A model generated the notes under the pieces. It made no database searches, was not told the DNA's origin, and saw nothing but the letters and a program-made list of their open reading frames with translations. The position numbers and the translations under genes are program-made. DNA of 64,000 nucleotides from Ancylobacter oerskovii (lineage in GTDB: Bacteria; Pseudomonadota; Alphaproteobacteria; Rhizobiales; Xanthobacteraceae), in the NCBI RefSeq assembly GCF_018390555.1, contig NZ_JAHBGB010000027.1, positions 186,001 to 250,000 on the forward strand. The letters are read 5' to 3'. Every line of letters starts with the position of its first letter. The first letter of the stretch is position 1. Positions 48,295 through 56,898 of the stretch are shown piece after piece.

Positions 48295-48552
48295 CCCCTT
48301 CGCCCGGCCCACACCTGCTTAGCAAAGTTTTAGGATATCTCGCACGCCTTGCACATTCATTTAGGAACGCCGGCATTCCGGGTGCGCTATAGAGGCGTCG
48401 CGCCGGCCGGGCGGCGTCACGAGCAAGTAACGCCAACTATTGGTGATGCCCCCGCTCCGACACGCTGGCGACTGCAAGGTCGCCGGAGCCGGCAGCAAGT
48501 CGCATTGAGACACAGCACCGAGAATTCAACAACGGTCCACGCAGGAGGCCGA

Positions 48553-49401
48553 ATGATGACGCACGTCCCCCCGAACGACAAAGACATGGTCCTCACCGCC
48601 GAGCAGATCGAAGCCTATCTCGCAAGGATCGGCGAAGAGCGGCCGGGTTCCCTCGACATATGCAGCCTGTCGAAACTTCATCGCGCTCATCTCATGAATT
48701 TCACCTGGGAGGCGCTGGATGCCTTCATGGGATGGCCGTCCTCAATTGCGCCGGCATCCGCCTTCGCCAAGATGGTGGAGGGGCGCCGCGGCGGCTGGTG
48801 CTACGAGATGAACGGCCTGTTCGGCGCCGCGCTCGCAGCCCTCGGCTTCCGGGTGACACGTCTGTGCGGCGGGGTCGACCGGGAGAAGCTTGGCGATCTC
48901 GCCGTCGGCAACCACCTGACGCTGCGCGTCGATCTCGATCGTCCCTACCTTGCCGAGGTGGGCGTGGCGGATGCCATCATCGAGCCGGTGCCACTGGCCG
49001 TCGGATCGATCAGCCAACGCGGGTTCGATTTTTCGATCGTGCCGGTGGAAGGCGGATGGCTCCGCTTCAACAATCATCATCGCGGGATTGCGAAAAGCGT
49101 CGATTTTCGGCCGGACTACAGCGACGAGGCTGGCATGGCGGCCACGCAGGATTGGCTGATGCGGGATCCCGGCTCGCCATTCACCAATGCGCTCGCCGTC
49201 TTCCGGCATACCGCGGACGGCTATGTTGCCCTGCAGAACGATTGCCTGCGCCACGTGACGGCGAGCGGCGTCAGCGAGCAACGCATCACCAGCGCCGATC
49301 ATCTCGCCGACACGTTCGAAACCGTTTTCAAGCTCGACATTCCCCGGCCTCGGCGGGTCTGGGAGAGAATTCGGGCCATCGGGTACGACGAGGCCGCCTG
49401 A
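48553..49401 (+). CDS. Arylamine N-acetyltransferase (NAT) homologue
   Basis: A 282-residue NAT-family protein. The catalytic Cys is Cys83 in RRGGWCYEMNGLF, and His121 lies in AVGNHLTLRV. The third triad residue is normally Asp in a DVGFG motif; here the segment is YLAEVGVAD, so Glu135 replaces it. Length and C-terminus are normal. It may acetylate arylamines or hydrazines using acetyl-CoA, or have a specialised role. Start at 48553 with GGAGG four bases upstream; an in-frame ATG three bases later is equally possible. The longer ORF start at 48349 lacks family similarity. Confidence 0.88.
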   Translation: MMTHVPPNDKDMVLTAEQIEAYLARIGEERPGSLDICSLSKLHRAHLMNFTWEALDAFMGWPSSIAPASAFAKMVEGRRGGWCYEMNGLFGAALAALGFRVTRLCGGVDREKLGDLAVGNHLTLRVDLDRPYLAEVGVADAIIEPVPLAVGSISQRGFDFSIVPVEGGWLRFNNHHRGIAKSVDFRPDYSDEAGMAATQDWLMRDPGSPFTNALAVFRHTADGYVALQNDCLRHVTASGVSEQRITSADHLADTFETVFKLDIPRPRRVWERIRAIGYDEAA

Positions 49402-49476: not shown

Positions 49477-49950
49477 TCAGAATGGGAAGCGCCGGACGAT
49501 GATCGCATCCAGCGAAAAGCTTCCCGGCCCGCGCAGGACAAGCAGCAGAAAGCACGTTGCCCAGACGCCATGCGTCGGCCAGGCGTCAGGATAGACGAAG
49601 ATCTCGATCACCATCGTCATCCCGAGGAGGGCAAGGGCCGAGAACCGTGTGGCGAGCCCAATCACCAGCAGCGCCGGGAAGAAATGCTCCGCAAAAGCGG
49701 CAAGATGCGCGGCAAGCCACGGATCGATGAGCGGCAGCCGATACTCCTCCTGGAACAGCGCAATTGCGCTGTCGGTGACCTGCCAGCCTTCGACCTTGGT
49801 CTGGCCGGATTGCCAGAATACGGCGGCGGGAAAGATGCGCGCGCAAAACAGTACCAGCGAAATCGGGACCGCATCGAGACGATCCCGTAGATGCAATATT
49901 GGGGATGCCATGTTGCTCGACGTCCGTGCAGTGGTGTTGATCGCAGTCAT
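49477..49950 (-). CDS. DoxX family membrane protein of the bufferin operon
   Basis: A 157-residue DoxX-type membrane protein with four helices (ISLVLFCARIFPAAVFWQSG, HLAAFAEHFFPALLVIGLAT, LALLGMTMVIEIFVYP, WATCFLLLVLRGPG). DoxX-like proteins often accompany bufABC genes. It overlaps bufC by four bases (ATGA). In the cluster it may assist export or protect membrane redox components; its exact role is unknown. Upstream of its end is a convergent NAT gene. Confidence 0.85.
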   Translation of the reverse strand: MTAINTTARTSSNMASPILHLRDRLDAVPISLVLFCARIFPAAVFWQSGQTKVEGWQVTDSAIALFQEEYRLPLIDPWLAAHLAAFAEHFFPALLVIGLATRFSALALLGMTMVIEIFVYPDAWPTHGVWATCFLLLVLRGPGSFSLDAIIVRRFPF

Positions 49951-50705
49951 GGCAGATCTCCATCGAAAACATGGATGCTGGTCGCCAGCCCACCGCCGAT
50001 GAGAATGGCGAGCGCGGCCGAAAGATCGAAATCCGTTGCCCTCGACGCCGCCGTGCTCGCGGCACGGCCCAGCGGCTCGCCGGCGCCGAGCGCTTCAATG
50101 AACAGCGCGGTTCCCAGGGTGAGCGGACGTATCAGGGGATCGAGTTCGGGACGATCGATCAGCACGGCCTGCGGCTGCCAATCGTCGATGGCCGCGGCAG
50201 GCTGGCTGCCACTGGTCATGGCGAGGATCGTCCACACCGGATGAGGCGAATGGATCACCGCGACAGCCGGGTGTAGCCTGACCCGCAACGCCTCGATCCC
50301 CTGCGACATCAGTGCCGAGAATGCATCGGCACCGAGCCGGACCAGATCCGGCGCGTGATAGGCGCGGGTGCGCGCAATCTCGATCCTCGCAATATCGGTG
50401 AGATAAGGCCAATCCTCGGCCGGCGTGAAGCTGGCGAGAAAGTCCGGGAGCTCATCACCGAAACTCGTCAGCAAGAGCGAAGTCGGTGGATGGGCCAGCA
50501 TGAATTCCCGCGCCATGGCGCGGAAGAACTCCTCGCCAACCAGCGAGATGAGCACCGGAAATCGCGTCTCCAACGCGCGGATCAGCGCAACCGCGACATT
50601 GTTGCGATAGACAGCGAAGCGGCGTTCGGCATGCCCGGCGAACTCTGGCGGCGGCCGCCGGTCCGGTGCCGTGAGCGCGCCGGCAAAGGAGGCGAGCGAA
50701 GTCAT
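49947..50705 (-). CDS. bufC: BufC/HvfC family RiPP maturation partner
   Basis: A 252-residue protein of the DUF2063 / HvfC-BufC family. The N-terminal domain (LASFAGALTAPDRRPPPEF, RRFAVYRNNVAVALIRALE, TRFPVLISLVGEEFFRAMA) is often listed as putative DNA-binding but in MNIO clusters acts as a partner that recruits the precursor peptide to the BufB enzyme. It starts three bases after bufB and is not itself a regulator by current understanding. Confidence 0.88.
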   Translation of the reverse strand: MTSLASFAGALTAPDRRPPPEFAGHAERRFAVYRNNVAVALIRALETRFPVLISLVGEEFFRAMAREFMLAHPPTSLLLTSFGDELPDFLASFTPAEDWPYLTDIARIEIARTRAYHAPDLVRLGADAFSALMSQGIEALRVRLHPAVAVIHSPHPVWTILAMTSGSQPAAAIDDWQPQAVLIDRPELDPLIRPLTLGTALFIEALGAGEPLGRAASTAASRATDFDLSAALAILIGGGLATSIHVFDGDLP

Positions 50706-50708
50706 GGC

Positions 50709-51563
50709 TCAGGCTACCGCGCTGCTTGCATGGCGTGTCAGCACCGCACCGACCCGCGCCGCCTCGGCACGCAGCACCGGCCAGGCCGGCACGTCATTGT
50801 CCCACTCGATCAGGCTGGGCAGCGGACCGGTACGGGCGATCACCTCCGCGAACAGGGCCCAGACCGGATCGGCCACCGGGCTGCCATGGGCATCGATGAG
50901 CAACGGTGCCCCGCTGTCGTCCATGTCCTCGTCATGGCCGCCGAGGTGGATTTCGCCCACCGCCTCGAACGGAAAATCGGCGAGATAGGCCCGCGCATCG
51001 GTGCCGTGGTTCACGGCCGAGACGAACACATTGTTGATGTCGAGCAAGAGCCCGCAACCAGTGCGAGCGACCAGCGCACCGAGAAAATCCACCTCGCCAA
51101 TGGTGCTCTCCTCAAAGCGTACATAGGTCGACGGGTTCTCCAGCAGCATGCGACAGCCGAGCGTGTCCTGAACCTCCGCGACGTGATCGCCGACGCGGCG
51201 TAGCGTCTCCGGCGTATAGGGCAGCGGCAGCAGGTCGCTGAAGAATGTCCCGCCATGGGAAGACCAGGCGAGATGTTCGGAAAAGCTCTCGGGCCGGTAG
51301 CGCTCGATCAGCGCTCTCAGCCGCGCGAGATGTGCCCTGTCGAGCGGCGCTTCGCCCCCGATGGAGAGGCCGACACCATGCAGCGAGAGGGCGAACCGCT
51401 CGCACAAGGCGGAGAGTTGGGCATGCGGCCTGCCGCCAGCACCCATATAGTTTTCGGCATGGACTTCGAGGAAGGCGATCGGCGCGGCGGGGTCGGCGAG
51501 GATGGCATCGAAATGCTCGGGCTTGAAACCGACGCCGGCGCCGGCGGGAAGACGCGTGGTCAT
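50709..51563 (-). CDS. bufB: BufB MNIO/DUF692 multinuclear iron oxidase
   Basis: A 284-residue DUF692 (MNIO) enzyme. These TIM-barrel proteins bind two or three irons and oxidise Cys residues of precursor peptides to thiooxazole or related heterocycles. Iron-ligand regions are visible: [56 protein letters not shown], and [12 protein letters not shown]. The start at 51563 has a strong ribosome site GGAGG; it is 66 bases after the bufA1 stop with a stem-loop between. Confidence 0.93.
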
Positions 51564-51586
51564 GAGAACCTCCTGCCTGGGGATGC

Positions 51587-51610
51587 GGAGGGCGCCGGCA
51601 AGCGCCCTCC
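51587..51610 (-). promoter_or_regulatory. Stem-loop between bufA1 and bufB
   Basis: A perfect 9-bp hairpin with arms GGAGGGCGC (51587-51595) and GCGCCCTCC (51602-51610) and a six-base loop. No U-run follows, so it is likely an attenuator or stabiliser that raises bufA1 mRNA relative to the maturation genes. Confidence 0.6.
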
Positions 51611-51628
51611 GGTTCGCAAGCTCCGACG

Positions 51629-51916
51629 TCACATCGCCTTCAGATGACCCATGCCCTTGGGGGTTTTGATGGTCTCGCAGGTACCCTTGGCGACGTATTT
51701 CCAGGCTTTGGCGTCATAGTTCACCTTGGAGGTGCCGGCGCAGGTGGTGCCGGCACCGGCGGCGCAATCGTTCTGTCCGGCGAGCGAGACGCCGTAGCAC
51801 TTGTCCATGTTCGGCTGCGGCGCGGCCGGGGCGGCAGCGGCGCTGGCCACCATTCCGAGCGCGGCGGCGATCGACCCGGCAAGGGTGGCAGCGACGAAGG
51901 TGGTCTTGGCGGTCAT
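51629..51916 (-). CDS. bufA1: BufA1-type bufferin precursor (copper-responsive RiPP)
   Basis: A 95-residue exported precursor. N-terminal Sec signal (about residues 1-29, ending ASAAAAP) is followed by a Cys-containing core: Cys40, Cys51, Cys59 and Cys80 (in [25 protein letters not shown] and GTCETIK). This DUF2282 family matches the bufferin-1 precursors described in Caulobacter, where BufB/BufC convert Cys residues to heterocycles and the product binds copper in the periplasm. First gene of bufA1-bufB-bufC-doxX. Confidence 0.92.
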
Positions 51917-51980
51917 GGGGATGTCCTCTGTGAGGTTGGCTTAAGCGCAGGGCATCCGTTCGCCCGGCGCTACCTCCTCT

Positions 51981-52006
51981 TTCGGCGGCCGGTGCCATTG
52001 CGTTAC
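51981..52006 (-). promoter_or_regulatory. SigF-type promoter of the bufferin operon
   Basis: On the minus strand -35 GTAACG (52006-52001), 16-base spacer, -10 CGAA (51984-51981). This matches the Caulobacter SigF consensus as remembered (GTAACC-N16-CGAA), and the ECF-sigma gene on the other side has the same motif. Predicted 5' UTR about 60 bases before the bufA1 ATG at 51916. Confidence 0.78.
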
Positions 52007-52064
52007 AGCGACGGGCGACGAAATATGCCGCGCGGAAAAATCCTCCGACCGTGCCGGACGGGAT

Positions 52065-52090
52065 GTAATGATCGGCCGGTAGCCGACGAA
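52065..52090 (+). promoter_or_regulatory. SigF-type promoter of the sigF-nrsF operon (autoregulation)
   Basis: GTAATG at 52065-52070, 16-base spacer and CGAA at 52087-52090, about 21 bases before the sigma-factor ATG at 52112. Same motif and spacing as the divergent bufA1 promoter, implying that the sigma factor drives both its own gene and the bufferin operon. Confidence 0.75.
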
Positions 52091-52111
52091 CTTACCTTCG
52101 GGAATGTATCG

Positions 52112-52660
52112 ATGGACGATCGCGAACGGCGCTGGATGCAACTCATGCAGGCCGCGCTGGCCGGTGACCGGCCGTCTTATGAACGGCTGCTGCGCGAGAT
52201 CGCCCCCGCGATCCGTTCCGTGGTGGAGCGGCGCCTCAGGCAGATGGGCGCGCCGACGGCCGAGAGCGAGGACGTGGTGCAGGAAACCTTGCTGGCGGTC
52301 CATCTGAAGCGGCATACATGGCGACCGAGCGACCCGCTCGGCCCCTGGCTGCGGACCATCGCGCGCAACAAGTTGATCGACCATCTGCGACGTCGCGGAC
52401 GGAGGGTTGAAGTGCTGGTGGAGGATTTCGCGGAATTGCTGGCGGCGCCCGAGGAGCGCCCCAGCACCGAGGCGGACGACGTGGAACGGCATCTGGCGTT
52501 GTTGCCGGACAAGCAGCGCTCGGTGATACGTTCGATCGCGGTCGAGGGAGCCTCGGTCGGCGAGACGGCCGAACGCATGAACATGACCCCCGGCGCTGTC
52601 CGCGTGGCGCTGCACCGTGCCTTTGCCAGCCTCTCGGCTCGGCTGAAGGCGGATGAGTGA
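52112..52660 (+). CDS. sigF: ECF RNA polymerase sigma factor, SigF type
   Basis: A 182-residue ECF sigma factor. Region 2 is seen in ESEDVVQETLLAVHLKRHTW and WLRTIARNKLIDHLRRRG (about residues 50-95) and region 4 in LALLPDKQRSVIRSIAVEGA and SVGETAERMNMTPGAVRVAL (about 125-175). It precedes a NrsF-type membrane anti-sigma and is divergent from the bufferin cluster, as in Caulobacter SigF. It probably responds to metal or oxidative stress. The start at 52112 is chosen for fit to the family; the Shine-Dalgarno is weak. Confidence 0.85.
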   Translation: MDDRERRWMQLMQAALAGDRPSYERLLREIAPAIRSVVERRLRQMGAPTAESEDVVQETLLAVHLKRHTWRPSDPLGPWLRTIARNKLIDHLRRRGRRVEVLVEDFAELLAAPEERPSTEADDVERHLALLPDKQRSVIRSIAVEGASVGETAERMNMTPGAVRVALHRAFASLSARLKADE

Positions 52661-52672
52661 GGACGATGTGAC

Positions 52673-53308
52673 GTGAAGACCGACGATCTCATACGTGGCC
52701 TCGCCGCCGATACGCGACCCCAGCGGAGCCTGGAGAGCGGGCTTGCCCTCGCGCTGGCCGTCGGGCTGGCTGGCGCGGTGGCCCTGTTCGCGATGATCCT
52801 GGCGCCTCGCTCGGGCATGCCCGGGCTGCTCATGGAGCCACGGGTGCTGATGAAATTCGTCGTGTCGCTTTCGCTCGCGGCCGTGTCGGTCTGGATGGCG
52901 CTGCGCCTCGTTCGTCCAGGCGCGAATGCGCGGTCCTTGGTCTGGACGCTGGCGGTGCCCGGTGGCGTGCTGGCGGTTGGGGTTGCGGCGGAATTGCTGG
53001 TGACGCCGGCGCAGGGCTGGATGCCCGGCCTTATCGGCCACAACGCGGTTTACTGCCTCTCTCTGGTGACGCTGATGGGCGCGCCGGTACTTGCAGCGGC
53101 GCTATTTGCCTTGAAGCGCGGGGCACCGGAACATCCCGCGTGGGCAGGTGCAGCCGGCGGCGCGCTCGCAGGAGGCCTCGGCGCGGCACTTTACGCGCTG
53201 CATTGCACCGACGATTCCCCGCTCTTCGTATTGACCTGGTACGGACTGGCCATCGGCTTCATGACCGTGGCCGGCGCGCTGATCGGCCGGCGCACGCTGT
53301 CGTGGTAG
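52673..53308 (+). CDS. nrsF: NrsF/DUF1109 family membrane anti-sigma factor
   Basis: A 211-residue protein with six membrane helices (for example GLALALAVGLAGAVALFAMI, VLMKFVVSLSLAAVSVWMAL, AVYCLSLVTLMGAPVLAAAL, FVLTWYGLAIGFMTVAGALI). It matches DUF1109/NrsF proteins, which hold the SigF-type sigma factor at the membrane until a stress signal releases it. The start is a GTG at 52673, 12 bases after the sigma stop; the operon is sigF-nrsF. Two cytoplasmic-side regions with Asp/Arg contact the sigma factor in the family. Confidence 0.88.
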   Translation: MKTDDLIRGLAADTRPQRSLESGLALALAVGLAGAVALFAMILAPRSGMPGLLMEPRVLMKFVVSLSLAAVSVWMALRLVRPGANARSLVWTLAVPGGVLAVGVAAELLVTPAQGWMPGLIGHNAVYCLSLVTLMGAPVLAAALFALKRGAPEHPAWAGAAGGALAGGLGAALYALHCTDDSPLFVLTWYGLAIGFMTVAGALIGRRTLSW

Positions 53309-53648: not shown

Positions 53649-54440
53649 CTAGGCTGCCAGTTCCTCCGCTGGAGCCTTGGCGCCGGTCATGAAGGCCACC
53701 GCATCGGACATGGTGTAGTCCTTCGGGTTGATGACGCAGAGCCGGCGACCGAGCCGGTGGATATGGATCCGGTCGGCGATCTCGAACACATGCGGCATGT
53801 TGTGGCTGATCAGCACGATCGGCAGGCCGCGCGAGCGCACGTCGAGGATCAACTCCAGCACCCGGCGCGATTCCTTGACGCCGAGCGCGGCGGTCGGCTC
53901 GTCCATGATGACGACGCGCGAGCCGAAGGCGGCGGCACGCGCCACCGCCACGCCCTGCCGCTGGCCGCCCGAGAGCGTCTCCACCGGCTGGTTGATGCTC
54001 TGCACCGTCATCAGGCCGAGCTCGCTGAGCTTGTCGCGGGCGATCTTCTGCATCGCCGGCCGGTCGAGCATGCGGAACACCGAGCCGAGCACGCCCGGCC
54101 GGCGCATCTCGCGGCCGAGAAACATGTTGTCGGCGATCGACAGGCTCGGCGACAGTGCCAGCGACTGGTGCACCGTCTCGATGCCGGCCCGCTGGGCATC
54201 CATCGGCGAGGCGAACTTCGCCACCTCGCCATCCAGCCGGATCTCGCCCTCGTCGGGAATCAGGGCACCGGACAGCGCCTTGATCAGCGAGGACTTGCCG
54301 GCACCGTTGTCGCCGATCACCGCCAGGATCTCGCCGGGATAGAGGTCGAAATCGGCGCGGTCCATGGCAGTCACCCGGCCATAGCGCTTCACCAGGCCGC
54401 GGGCGGAGAGGACGGGGGCGGCGGAGGCGGACTTGGACAT
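53649..54440 (-). CDS. frcA: Fructose-type ABC transporter ATPase FrcA
   Basis: A 263-residue ATPase closely following the Sinorhizobium FrcA pattern: VLSARGLVKRYGRVTAMDRA, Walker A GDNGAGKSS, signature LSGGQRQGVAVARA, Walker B VVIMDEPTAALG and switch LISHNMPHVFEIAD. It ends in HIHRLGRRLCVINPKDYTMS, a typical FrcA C-terminus. Start at 54440 gives the family N-terminus; an alternative ATG at 54461 would overlap frcC as ATGA and is equally plausible. Terminator downstream. Confidence 0.92.
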   Translation of the reverse strand: MSKSASAAPVLSARGLVKRYGRVTAMDRADFDLYPGEILAVIGDNGAGKSSLIKALSGALIPDEGEIRLDGEVAKFASPMDAQRAGIETVHQSLALSPSLSIADNMFLGREMRRPGVLGSVFRMLDRPAMQKIARDKLSELGLMTVQSINQPVETLSGGQRQGVAVARAAAFGSRVVIMDEPTAALGVKESRRVLELILDVRSRGLPIVLISHNMPHVFEIADRIHIHRLGRRLCVINPKDYTMSDAVAFMTGAKAPAEELAA

Positions 54441-54457
54441 GGTCTTCAGCTCCGTAA

Positions 54458-55558
54458 TCATGCCGACACCTTGCGGATCCACTGGTCGAGGGCGACCGCG
54501 ACGATGATCAGGATGCCGACGGTGAATTCCTGCCACAGCACGTCGACGCCGGAGAGGGCGAGGCCGTTGCGGAACACGCCGACGATGAGCGCGCCGATCA
54601 ACGTGCCGATGATCGAGCCGCGTCCGCCGAACAGGCTGGCGCCGCCGATCACCACCGCGGTGATGCTGTCGAGATTGGCGGTCTGGCCGGCCTGCGGTGA
54701 CACCGAGCCGATGCGACCGATCAGCGCCCAGGCGCCGAGCGCGCAGATGACGCCCGCCGCGACATAGACGGTGAACAGCACCTTGCGGGTGCGGATGCCC
54801 GAAAGCTCGGCGGCGACCGGGTCGTCGCCCACCGCATAGAGATGCCGGCCGAAGGCGGTGCGGTTCAGCACGTACCAGACCAGCGCGATCAGCCCCAGCA
54901 TGAAGACGGAGCCATAGGTGAAGCGGGCGCCCAGCACGTCCACCGGCGTGCCGAGGAATTGCAGGAACGGCGCGGCCTTGGCGACGTCCTGCGAGCGGAT
55001 GGTCTCGGAAGCCGAGTACCAGAGGTTGAGCGCGAAGAAGATCGACCAGGTGCCGAGGGTGACGATGAAGGGCGGCAGCCTCAGCCGCGTCACCAGCACG
55101 CCGTTGACGGCGCCGCAGCCGCCGCCGACCACGATGCCGACCATGAAGGCCAGCGGCGCCGGCAGGCCGAGCGTCACCGCCAGCTTGCCCATCACCACCG
55201 AGCACAGCACCATGATGGCGCCGACCGACAGGTCGATGCCGGCGGTGATGACGATCAGCGTCTGGGCGATGCCGATGATGCCGATGATCGTCACCTGCTG
55301 GATGATCAGCGACAAGTTGAAGGACGACAGGAAGCGGCTGCCGACGATCAGGCTGAAGCCGAGGATGCCCAGCGCCAGCACGATGGCCGGCACCGCGGTC
55401 GGGTTGGCGTGCAGGAAATGCTGCACGCGCTGGATCGGCGATTTGGGCGTGACGTCGAACTCAGCAACGCGGCTGTCGCGCTTTTCGAGCACCTGCTCGA
55501 AAGCCTGCATCGCCGGAGGACCCGAAGGGTTCGCGCCGGAACTGCTCACATCGGTCAT
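54458..55558 (-). CDS. frcC: Fructose-type ABC transporter permease FrcC
   Basis: A 366-residue BPD_transp_2 permease with about ten membrane helices. FrcC-like segments: VQHFLHANPTAVPAIVLALG, AQTLIVITAGIDLSVGAIMV, LRLPPFIVTLGTWSIFFAL, GRHLYAVGDDPVAAELSGIR and GGASLFGGRGSIIGTLIGAL. The start at 55558 (MTDV) is set by GGGAGG eight bases upstream. A stem-loop separates it from frcB. Confidence 0.92.
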   Translation of the reverse strand: MTDVSSSGANPSGPPAMQAFEQVLEKRDSRVAEFDVTPKSPIQRVQHFLHANPTAVPAIVLALGILGFSLIVGSRFLSSFNLSLIIQQVTIIGIIGIAQTLIVITAGIDLSVGAIMVLCSVVMGKLAVTLGLPAPLAFMVGIVVGGGCGAVNGVLVTRLRLPPFIVTLGTWSIFFALNLWYSASETIRSQDVAKAAPFLQFLGTPVDVLGARFTYGSVFMLGLIALVWYVLNRTAFGRHLYAVGDDPVAAELSGIRTRKVLFTVYVAAGVICALGAWALIGRIGSVSPQAGQTANLDSITAVVIGGASLFGGRGSIIGTLIGALIVGVFRNGLALSGVDVLWQEFTVGILIIVAVALDQWIRKVSA

Positions 55559-55608
55559 CGCCATACCCTCCCGCAGACCGGCTTCGCGCTGGCGATGCAC
55601 GGGGCCGG

Positions 55609-55633
55609 GAGAGGCACCCCGCGGGAGCCTCTC
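55609..55633 (-). promoter_or_regulatory. Stem-loop between frcB and frcC
   Basis: Inverted repeat GAGAGGC (55609-55615) / GCCTCTC (55627-55633) with a further GC-rich inner core. As after tauA and bufA1, it lies directly after the gene whose product is needed in excess, suggesting differential mRNA levels. Confidence 0.5.
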
Positions 55634-55719
55634 GGTTGTTTCACAAGGACGATCCGCACCGCAGGGAGCGGTACGATGTCAGACCCGCCGCGCCGCCCGG
55701 GAGACGGCGCGGAGAGCGA

Positions 55720-56769
55720 TCAGCCCCAGCACTTCTTCAGCGCTTCCGAGGACGGGATCGACTTGACGCCGCTCACCGGCTTGTCGGTGACGAGCTCGAC
55801 GCCGGTGTTCACGAAGTCGAGGCCGGGGGTGGCCTGCGGCTTGGCGCCGGTGTCGGCGAAGGCCTTCACCGCCTCGATGCCCTTGGATGCCATCAGCAGC
55901 GGGAACTGCATGGAGGTGGCGCCGATGACGCCATCGGCGACGTTGCGTACGCCAGGGCAGCCGCCGTCGACCGAGACGATCAGCACGTCCTTGTCGCGGC
56001 CGACCGACTTCAGCGCCTCATAGGCGCCGGCCGCCGCCGGCTCGTTGATCGTGTAGACCACCGAAATTCCGGGGTCCTTCTGGAGCAGGTTCTCCATCGC
56101 CTTGCGGCCGCCCTCCTCGTTGCCGAGGGTGGTGTCGTGGCCGACGATGCGCTTGTCCTTCTCGTCGCCGATCACCGCCGGATTGGCGAGATCGATGCCG
56201 AAGCCCTTCATGAAACCCTGGTCGCGGGAGACGTCGACCGAGACCTGGTTCACGCTGAGGTCGAGCAGCGCGATCTTGGCGGCGCCGGCCTTCTCGCCCA
56301 GCGTCTTGGCCGCCCATTGGCCAATCAGCTCGCCGGCGAGGAAATTGTCGGTGGCGAAGGTGGCGTCGGCGGCGTTCGGCGGATCGAGCTGCGTATCCAG
56401 GGCGATGACCAGGATGCCGGCGGCGCGGGCCTTCTCGATGGAAGGCACGATGGCGCGCGAGTCGCTGGGCGTGATCAGGATGCCCTTGGCACCCGCGGCG
56501 ATGAGGTTCTCCACCGCCGCGACCTGCGAGTCGTTGTCGCCGTCGACCTTGCCGGCGAAGGAACGCAACTCCATGCCGAGCTCGTCGGCCTTGGCCTGCG
56601 CGCCCTCCTTCATCTTCACGAAGAAGGGGTTGGTGTTGGTCTTGGTGATGATGCCGACGATCGGCTTGTCGGCGGCGGCGGCGAGCCCGGCTCCCGCAAG
56701 CGTGACACTGGCGAGCGCGATGGCGGAAACGGCCGAGAAAACAAGGTGATGCCGGAACGAGCGGCGCAT
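55720..56769 (-). CDS. frcB: Fructose-type ABC transporter binding protein FrcB
   Basis: A 349-residue periplasmic sugar-binding protein with signal peptide (cleavage near LAAAADKP). Typical segments: [60 protein letters not shown], and the closing [17 protein letters not shown]. It captures fructose and possibly ribose or mannose. GGGAGGG lies before the ATG at 56769, first gene of frcBCA. Confidence 0.92.
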
Positions 56770-56857
56770 TCTTCCCTCCCTTGGGACGATGTGAAATGGC
56801 GCAGGTTTGTCCCGCGACGTGCTCTTTGGCGTTTTCATGAAGCCGCAGCCTCCCACC

Positions 56858-56898
56858 CCTGTCAATAAATAAATCACTCAGATTTAATAATTGACAGG
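56858..56898. promoter_or_regulatory. Operator/promoter palindrome between frcB and the ROK regulator
   Basis: An 18-bp imperfect inverted repeat (arms 56858-56875 and 56881-56898, 16 of 18 pairs; outer CCTGTCAAT/ATTGACAGG perfect) with a 5-base centre. Each outer arm contains TTGACA reading outward, so the operator overlaps -35 boxes of both divergent promoters. The AT-rich inner part is typical of ROK-repressor sites. Confidence 0.75.

Follow-up and report, generated by a model that had tools for sequence, protein, structure and literature searches.

A predicted SigF/NrsF-type sigma factor circuit encoded divergently from a Buf1 bufferin operon in Ancylobacter oerskovii

In Caulobacter vibrioides, the sigma factor SigF (CC3253) and NrsF (CC3252) are encoded beside CC3254–CC3257 (CCNA_03362–03366), which specify DUF2282, DUF692, DUF2063, and DoxX proteins, and the two transcription units share a common GTAACC-N16-CGAA motif (PMC3511200, PMC8224329; statements on this and the other published systems refer to the available parts of each paper). 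The divergent layout of these units is deduced here from the adjoining gene numbers. Fusions to lacZ showed that both promoters require the GTAACC and CGAA elements, and overexpression of sigF raises both transcription units (PMC3511200). Copper increases expression across the entire cluster, with sigF and nrsF among the responding genes; a sigF::Tn5 mutant is sensitive to copper, and a sigF mutant is reported to be impaired in stationary-phase resistance to oxidative stress (PMC8224329). Here, we analyze a locus with the same six gene families at positions 49477–53308 of a 64,000-nucleotide stretch of the Ancylobacter oerskovii genome (contig NZ_JAHBGB010000027.1, positions 186,001 to 250,000), referred to below as the window.

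Several other described systems share parts of this arrangement. For Sinorhizobium meliloti RpoE7-EcfR7 and SMb20530–SMb20527, a divergent layout is stated, DUF692 and DUF2063 genes are present, and both promoters are printed; counted from the printed letters, the spacers are N16 before SMb20530 and N15 before rpoE7, whereas both spacers in the window are N16 (PMC6180224). Bradyrhizobium EcfF-OsrA and Brucella BcrS-AbcS belong to the ECF16 group of extracytoplasmic function (ECF) sigma factors and, as here, combine a DUF1109 anti-sigma factor carrying two cysteines (Cys129 and Cys179) with a GTAAC-type promoter, but their clients differ, being Msr-type, MxKDx methionine-rich, or DsbD-domain proteins (PMC3420878, PMC8315932). 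The published ECF16 promoter consensus is (T/C)GTAAC-N17-CGAA (PMC8315932). Buf1 bufferin clusters contain DUF2282, MNIO, DUF2063, and DoxX genes, as does the window, and we found no difference in gene content from the available description, which reports sigma and NrsF genes in Buf1 and not in Buf2 clusters (PMC12452194). The layout, motif, and regulatory logic are thus already in print, and the locus adds another genus. An earlier note on this sequence had singled out the physical union of regulator and client; because the same arrangement is described for Caulobacter CC3252–CC3257 and S. meliloti RpoE7, we regard this union as ordinary.

The A. oerskovii locus consists of doxX-bufC-bufB-bufA1 on the minus strand and an ECF sigma gene followed by nrsF on the plus strand. 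All six proteins exceed their Pfam gathering cut-offs. The divergent layout described in the earlier note is confirmed, and the coordinates given there for the locus and both promoter sites were all correct on rechecking. The precursor gene bufA1 (51629–51916, minus strand) encodes a 95-residue DUF2282 (Buf1) bufferin precursor (Pfam, 85 bits) and has no match in NCBIfam. Its neighbor bufB (50709–51563, minus strand) encodes an MNIO-family bufferin maturase that scores 345.3 bits against Pfam MbnB_TglH_ChrH and passes the NCBIfam equivalog MNIO_BufB (369.8 bits; cut-off 310). The operon continues with bufC (49947–50705, minus strand), which encodes a DUF2063 partner protein (85.7 bits; cut-off 27.2) and shares the last 4 bases of its 3′ end with the start of doxX, and closes with a DoxX-family membrane protein gene (49477–49950, minus strand; 62.4 bits; cut-off 23.6). 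In contrast to the agreement in gene content with Buf1 clusters, BufC reaches 46.5 bits against NCBIfam HvfC (cut-off 142) and DoxX 49 bits against HvfX (cut-off 80); because both scores lie under the equivalog cut-offs, these two proteins are assigned at the Pfam family level only.

On the other strand, a SigF-like sigma factor of the ECF16-type group (52112–52660, plus strand; 182 residues) carries sigma regions 2 and 4 (Pfam Sigma70_r2/r4) and passes NCBIfam PRK12512 (249.6 bits; cut-off 198). The DUF1109/NrsF gene lies directly downstream after 12 intergenic bases (52673–53308, plus strand; 211 residues) and matches Pfam NrsF at 176.4 bits (cut-off 26.8). Since it scores 82.3 bits against AntiSigF_NrsF, the NCBIfam equivalog for the Caulobacter-type protein, where the cut-off is 300, we place it in the Pfam NrsF family and not in that equivalog. 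The closest named relatives are from Ancylobacter, with the NrsF of A. sonchi and Ancylobacter sp. Lp-2 91% identical over the full length, in a comparison from which very near genomes may have been left out. Genome-wide, we found one DUF2282 gene and one MNIO gene, bufB being the sole PF05114 match. In Caulobacter, SigF controls a further bufferin operon and also MsrPQ; the comparison here covers the bufferin genes.

Both the client and the anti-sigma factor retain the cysteines of their families. The BufA1 cysteines (Cys40, Cys51, Cys59, and Cys80) correspond to the four of Buf1 bufferins and are present in all 50 aligned rows, and a hydrophobicity scan finds one hydrophobic stretch at the N-terminus (residues 6–24), a possible signal peptide. 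NrsF Cys128 and Cys178 lie 50 residues apart, the same spacing as Cys131/181 of Caulobacter NrsF and Cys129/179 of Bradyrhizobium OsrA. Among the rows that cover these positions, with 3 cut-off rows set aside, Cys128 is kept in 71/71 and Cys178 in 70/71; the NrsF of locus L105 has His at the second position. The alignment rows are unique by sequence only, and a gene present in two loci may count twice. A 19-residue scan of NrsF gives six hydrophobic peaks under a lax threshold of 1.3, the weakest at 1.36, which are candidate transmembrane segments.

Two predicted SigF-type promoters, both identified as motif matches, face outward in the 195-base gap between bufA1 and sigF. The one before bufA1 reads GTAACG-N16-CGAA (51981–52006, minus strand), and the one before sigF reads GTAATG-N16-CGAA (52065–52090, plus strand). 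They had been described as matched, which holds for the identical N16 spacing and fails for the −35 hexamers, where one base differs. In ECF16 notation, the bufA1 promoter is TGTAAC-N17-CGAA and fits the consensus, and the sigF promoter is TGTAAT-N17-CGAA, one base away from it (T at 52069). The window motif equals the published Caulobacter site except for the last −35 base, and on the sigF side GTAATG stands against the Caulobacter GTAACC (PMC3511200).

Sites of this form are rare. Within the 64-kb window, GTAAY-N17-CGAA occurs at these two positions only. The 5,480,425-base genome contains five copies of GTAAYG-N16-CGAA, two of them at the locus, compared with nine copies of a reversed control pattern. 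From the three sites elsewhere, the chance of finding a site in both directions in a 195-base gap is about 3e-9, a rough estimate for a pattern picked after the fact. The form TGTAAY-N17-CGAA occurs three times genome-wide (control, five), twice at the locus. We considered a wider SigF regulon in this genome and rejected it: the third TGTAAY-N17-CGAA site falls inside an open reading frame, and the CGTA form of the motif has a single genomic site.

We compared 105 loci, comprising 5 pattern matches from the window's own genome (two being this locus), 30 NrsF loci, 30 DUF2282 loci, and 40 named loci. The NrsF and DUF2282 loci came from 61 related genomes, the window's included, and 30 of 57 NrsF matches were compared as loci, with paralogues covered in part. 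Identical upstream regions were dropped, as were regions shorter than 50 bases (for example in L068 and L073, whose sigF is at the edge of the locus), and in L088 sigF was not matched. The final set contained 65 distinct sigF upstream regions, of which 36 are divergent from bufA (window included) and 29 have no bufA beside sigF; many rows are close kin and not independent.

In the 36 divergent loci, GTAANN-N16-CGAA is present on the sigF side in 24, on the client side in 24, and on both sides in 21. Control spacers of 12–15 and 17–20 matched in at most 1 locus, and the reversed pattern in none. In the loci that GTAANN-N16-CGAA missed, the −10 element is CGTA or the spacer is 15 bases long. With a relaxed pattern (GTAAYN, CG[AT]A, spacers of 15–17, and limits on start-codon distance) that was set after viewing the sequences, all 36 distinct divergent loci, the window among them, have both sites, and control spacers across 10–23 gave 0 or 1 outside 15–16. 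The earlier note had proposed conservation of both motifs in related genomes as the test of its reading, and this is what we found. Where bufA is not adjacent, the sigF site is present in 27/29 loci (absent from L104 and L105) and an opposite-side site in 8/29. One locus from the window's own genus, L015, has only fragments of the bufferin operon, while its sigF-nrsF matches have the usual length and the promoter sites are present on both sides.

These counts bear on a simpler explanation, in which the sigF-side site is a chance match and the operon-side promoter alone is used. Each site is short, with 10 fixed bases, as chance would allow; however, the strict form occurs only five times in 5.48 Mb, and the sigF-side site is found in 36/36 divergent loci, and we consider chance very improbable. 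We also asked whether the −10 elements of the two sides exchange CGAA for CGTA together, which would point to a single reader, and rejected this argument. The two sides agree in 31/36 loci, but on the tree these reduce to 2 and 3 changes and 2 independent pairs, so the co-switch is not evidence for one reader.

We prefer, with high but not complete confidence, the reading in which this locus is a SigF/NrsF-type (ECF16) pair encoded divergently from a Buf1 bufferin operon, with a predicted metal-freed sigma factor reading both promoters. The sequence itself shows the genes and their opposed orientation, both motifs, the cysteines conserved in NrsF and in BufA1, and the retention of the promoters in relatives. 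That one sigma factor controls its own gene and the bufferin operon, as first proposed, gains support from the published SigF/ECF16 motif on both sides and from the 36/36 loci; one ECF sigma factor probably reads both. By analogy with the homologues, the predicted membrane anti-sigma factor NrsF would restrain the sigma factor until metal stress arises in the periplasm, with Cys128 and Cys178 sensing or relaying the signal. The freed sigma factor would then transcribe sigF-nrsF, giving feedback, as well as bufA1-bufB-bufC-doxX. BufB, with BufC, would modify the central cysteines of exported BufA1, and the mature peptide may bind excess copper in the periplasm. The release signal had been given as metal or redox. 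The metal half agrees with the chromate and cadmium response of the Caulobacter regulon (PMC3511200) and with its induction by copper; the redox half fares unevenly, as the available part of the Caulobacter report gives no response to peroxides, paraquat, or diamide (PMC3511200), whereas Bradyrhizobium EcfF-OsrA responds to H2O2 (PMC3420878).

Several points weigh against this reading. For A. oerskovii, the evidence is sequence-based. The NrsF, HvfC, and HvfX matches fall short of their NCBIfam equivalog cut-offs. In the available S. meliloti account, reporters of rpoE7 and its target are unresponsive to H2O2, cadmium, and chromate (PMC6180224). One base of the window's sigF promoter differs from GTAAC, and in Caulobacter sigF did not show strong self-control under dichromate, its promoter being not exclusively σF-dependent, with only a slight fall in a sigF mutant (PMC3511200).

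The last two points also favor an alternative in which the sigma factor drives the bufferin operon while feedback on its own gene through GTAATG is weak or absent, sigF being read mainly by another sigma factor. The window is alone among 63 scored sigF-side sites in having T at the fifth −35 base, C being present in the other 62/62, although the scoring admitted only C or T, so that other changes would escape it. The aligned kin of the site have C there (GTAACG in L065 and L066, GTAACA in L024). The rest of the sigF motif, its spacing, and its distance from the start codon are nonetheless intact, copper raises sigF itself in Caulobacter (PMC8224329), and the T at 52069 is possibly a sequencing error. 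Overall, we regard weak or absent feedback as a minority possibility and keep to the reading in which both promoters are used. The T at 52069 was not remarked on in the earlier note, and neither was a second detail, a palindrome in relatives.

This palindrome, TCACG-N4-CGTGA, lies between the two −35 boxes (at least 8/10 positions) in 22/36 divergent bufferin loci, for example L029, L069, L083, and L095, against a shuffle mean of 1.0 and a maximum of 4 in 200 shuffles. A gap of 4 gives these 22 loci, and other gaps of 0–10 give 0–6. It starts 11–12 bases past the client −35 hexamer in 14/22 loci and 5–33 bases past it in the other 8. Among non-bufferin loci, it is present in 6/8 with a client-side site (shuffle mean 0.1, largest 2) and in 4/19 that lack such a site (mean 0.6, largest 3). 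Only single-base composition was preserved in the shuffles, and the counts are raised by kinship among the loci. No palindrome was found at 52007–52064 of the window, in its three nearest kin (L065, L066, and L024), or in ten further bufferin loci. The window and these three kin instead share CGACGAAATATGC (52016–52028, no strand assigned), about where other loci have the palindrome.

The palindrome raises the possibility that relatives are under a second, palindrome-binding regulator in addition to SigF, an input that the window's clade lost or never had. Its enrichment over shuffles in both sets of loci with a client-side site argues for this, as does the presence of one palindrome at this locus in each of 6 other genomes searched. 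However, 14/36 bufferin loci, the window among them, lack the palindrome, only 4/19 loci without a client-side site carry it, and many of the rows are close kin and not independent events; we rate this reading somewhat below an even chance. More tentatively still, and with less confidence, the palindrome may serve as an operator through which a second, undescribed regulator acts on ECF16/SigF circuits whatever the client (bufferin, methionine-rich peptide, or DsbD-like protein), the window's clade having lost it and relying on SigF alone. We rejected the palindrome as a global operator: on both strands of 7 genomes, WCACG-N4-CGTGA occurs 6–10 times each (61 in total) compared with 2–12 for the reversed control (39 in total), above the control in 5/7 genomes, equal in 1, and below in 1, and no large regulon is apparent. 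The titles and abstract openings among the literature matches listed do not mention the palindrome, which is weak evidence of absence.

Other genes occupy the client position in some loci without bufA beside sigF. In L006, L007, L008, and L070, an MxKDx methionine-rich peptide gene lies on the strand opposite sigF-nrsF, and a SigF-type site is directed toward it; MxKDx was scored in L006, L007, and L070, and was also found in the genomes of L006, L007, and L008. Two of these loci, L006 and L008, belong to the window's own genus, and their genomes have no DUF2282 match. An MxKDx gene was not found in the window's genome. In the Rhodobacterales loci L087, L090, and L101, a DsbD-like gene lies opposite sigF-nrsF (L087 at 27.8 bits and L090, both weak; L101 by eye), and L090 also has a thioredoxin-like gene there. 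We dropped client exchange as a novelty because the published ECF16 systems of Brucella and Bradyrhizobium already have such clients (PMC8315932, PMC3420878).

Within the bufferin operon, the gap between bufA1 and bufB contains a perfect 10-base-pair hairpin with no T run (51586–51611, minus strand; gap fold z −2.5). Stems of at least 7 pairs are present in 24/45 distinct bufA–bufB gaps, a count made with no shuffle control. The hairpin is possibly an attenuator or an mRNA-processing stem, and it may help to maintain precursor mRNA above maturase mRNA. Outside the locus, an arylamine N-acetyltransferase family gene (Pfam Acetyltransf_2; 48349–49401) adjoins doxX on the opposite strand, and past nrsF, on the opposite strand at 53649–56877, inspection of the open reading frame list by eye suggests a sugar-type ATP-binding cassette transporter (ATPase, permease, and binding protein).

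With this locus, a copper-stress circuit tested in Caulobacter is extended to a further genus. Both promoters are conserved there, so it is very likely that regulator and client form one unit in Ancylobacter. The palindrome, present in many relatives and absent from the window's clade, would offer a natural comparison for a second input to SigF circuits. This question touches the Caulobacter sigF promoter as well, which is reported to be not exclusively SigF-dependent.

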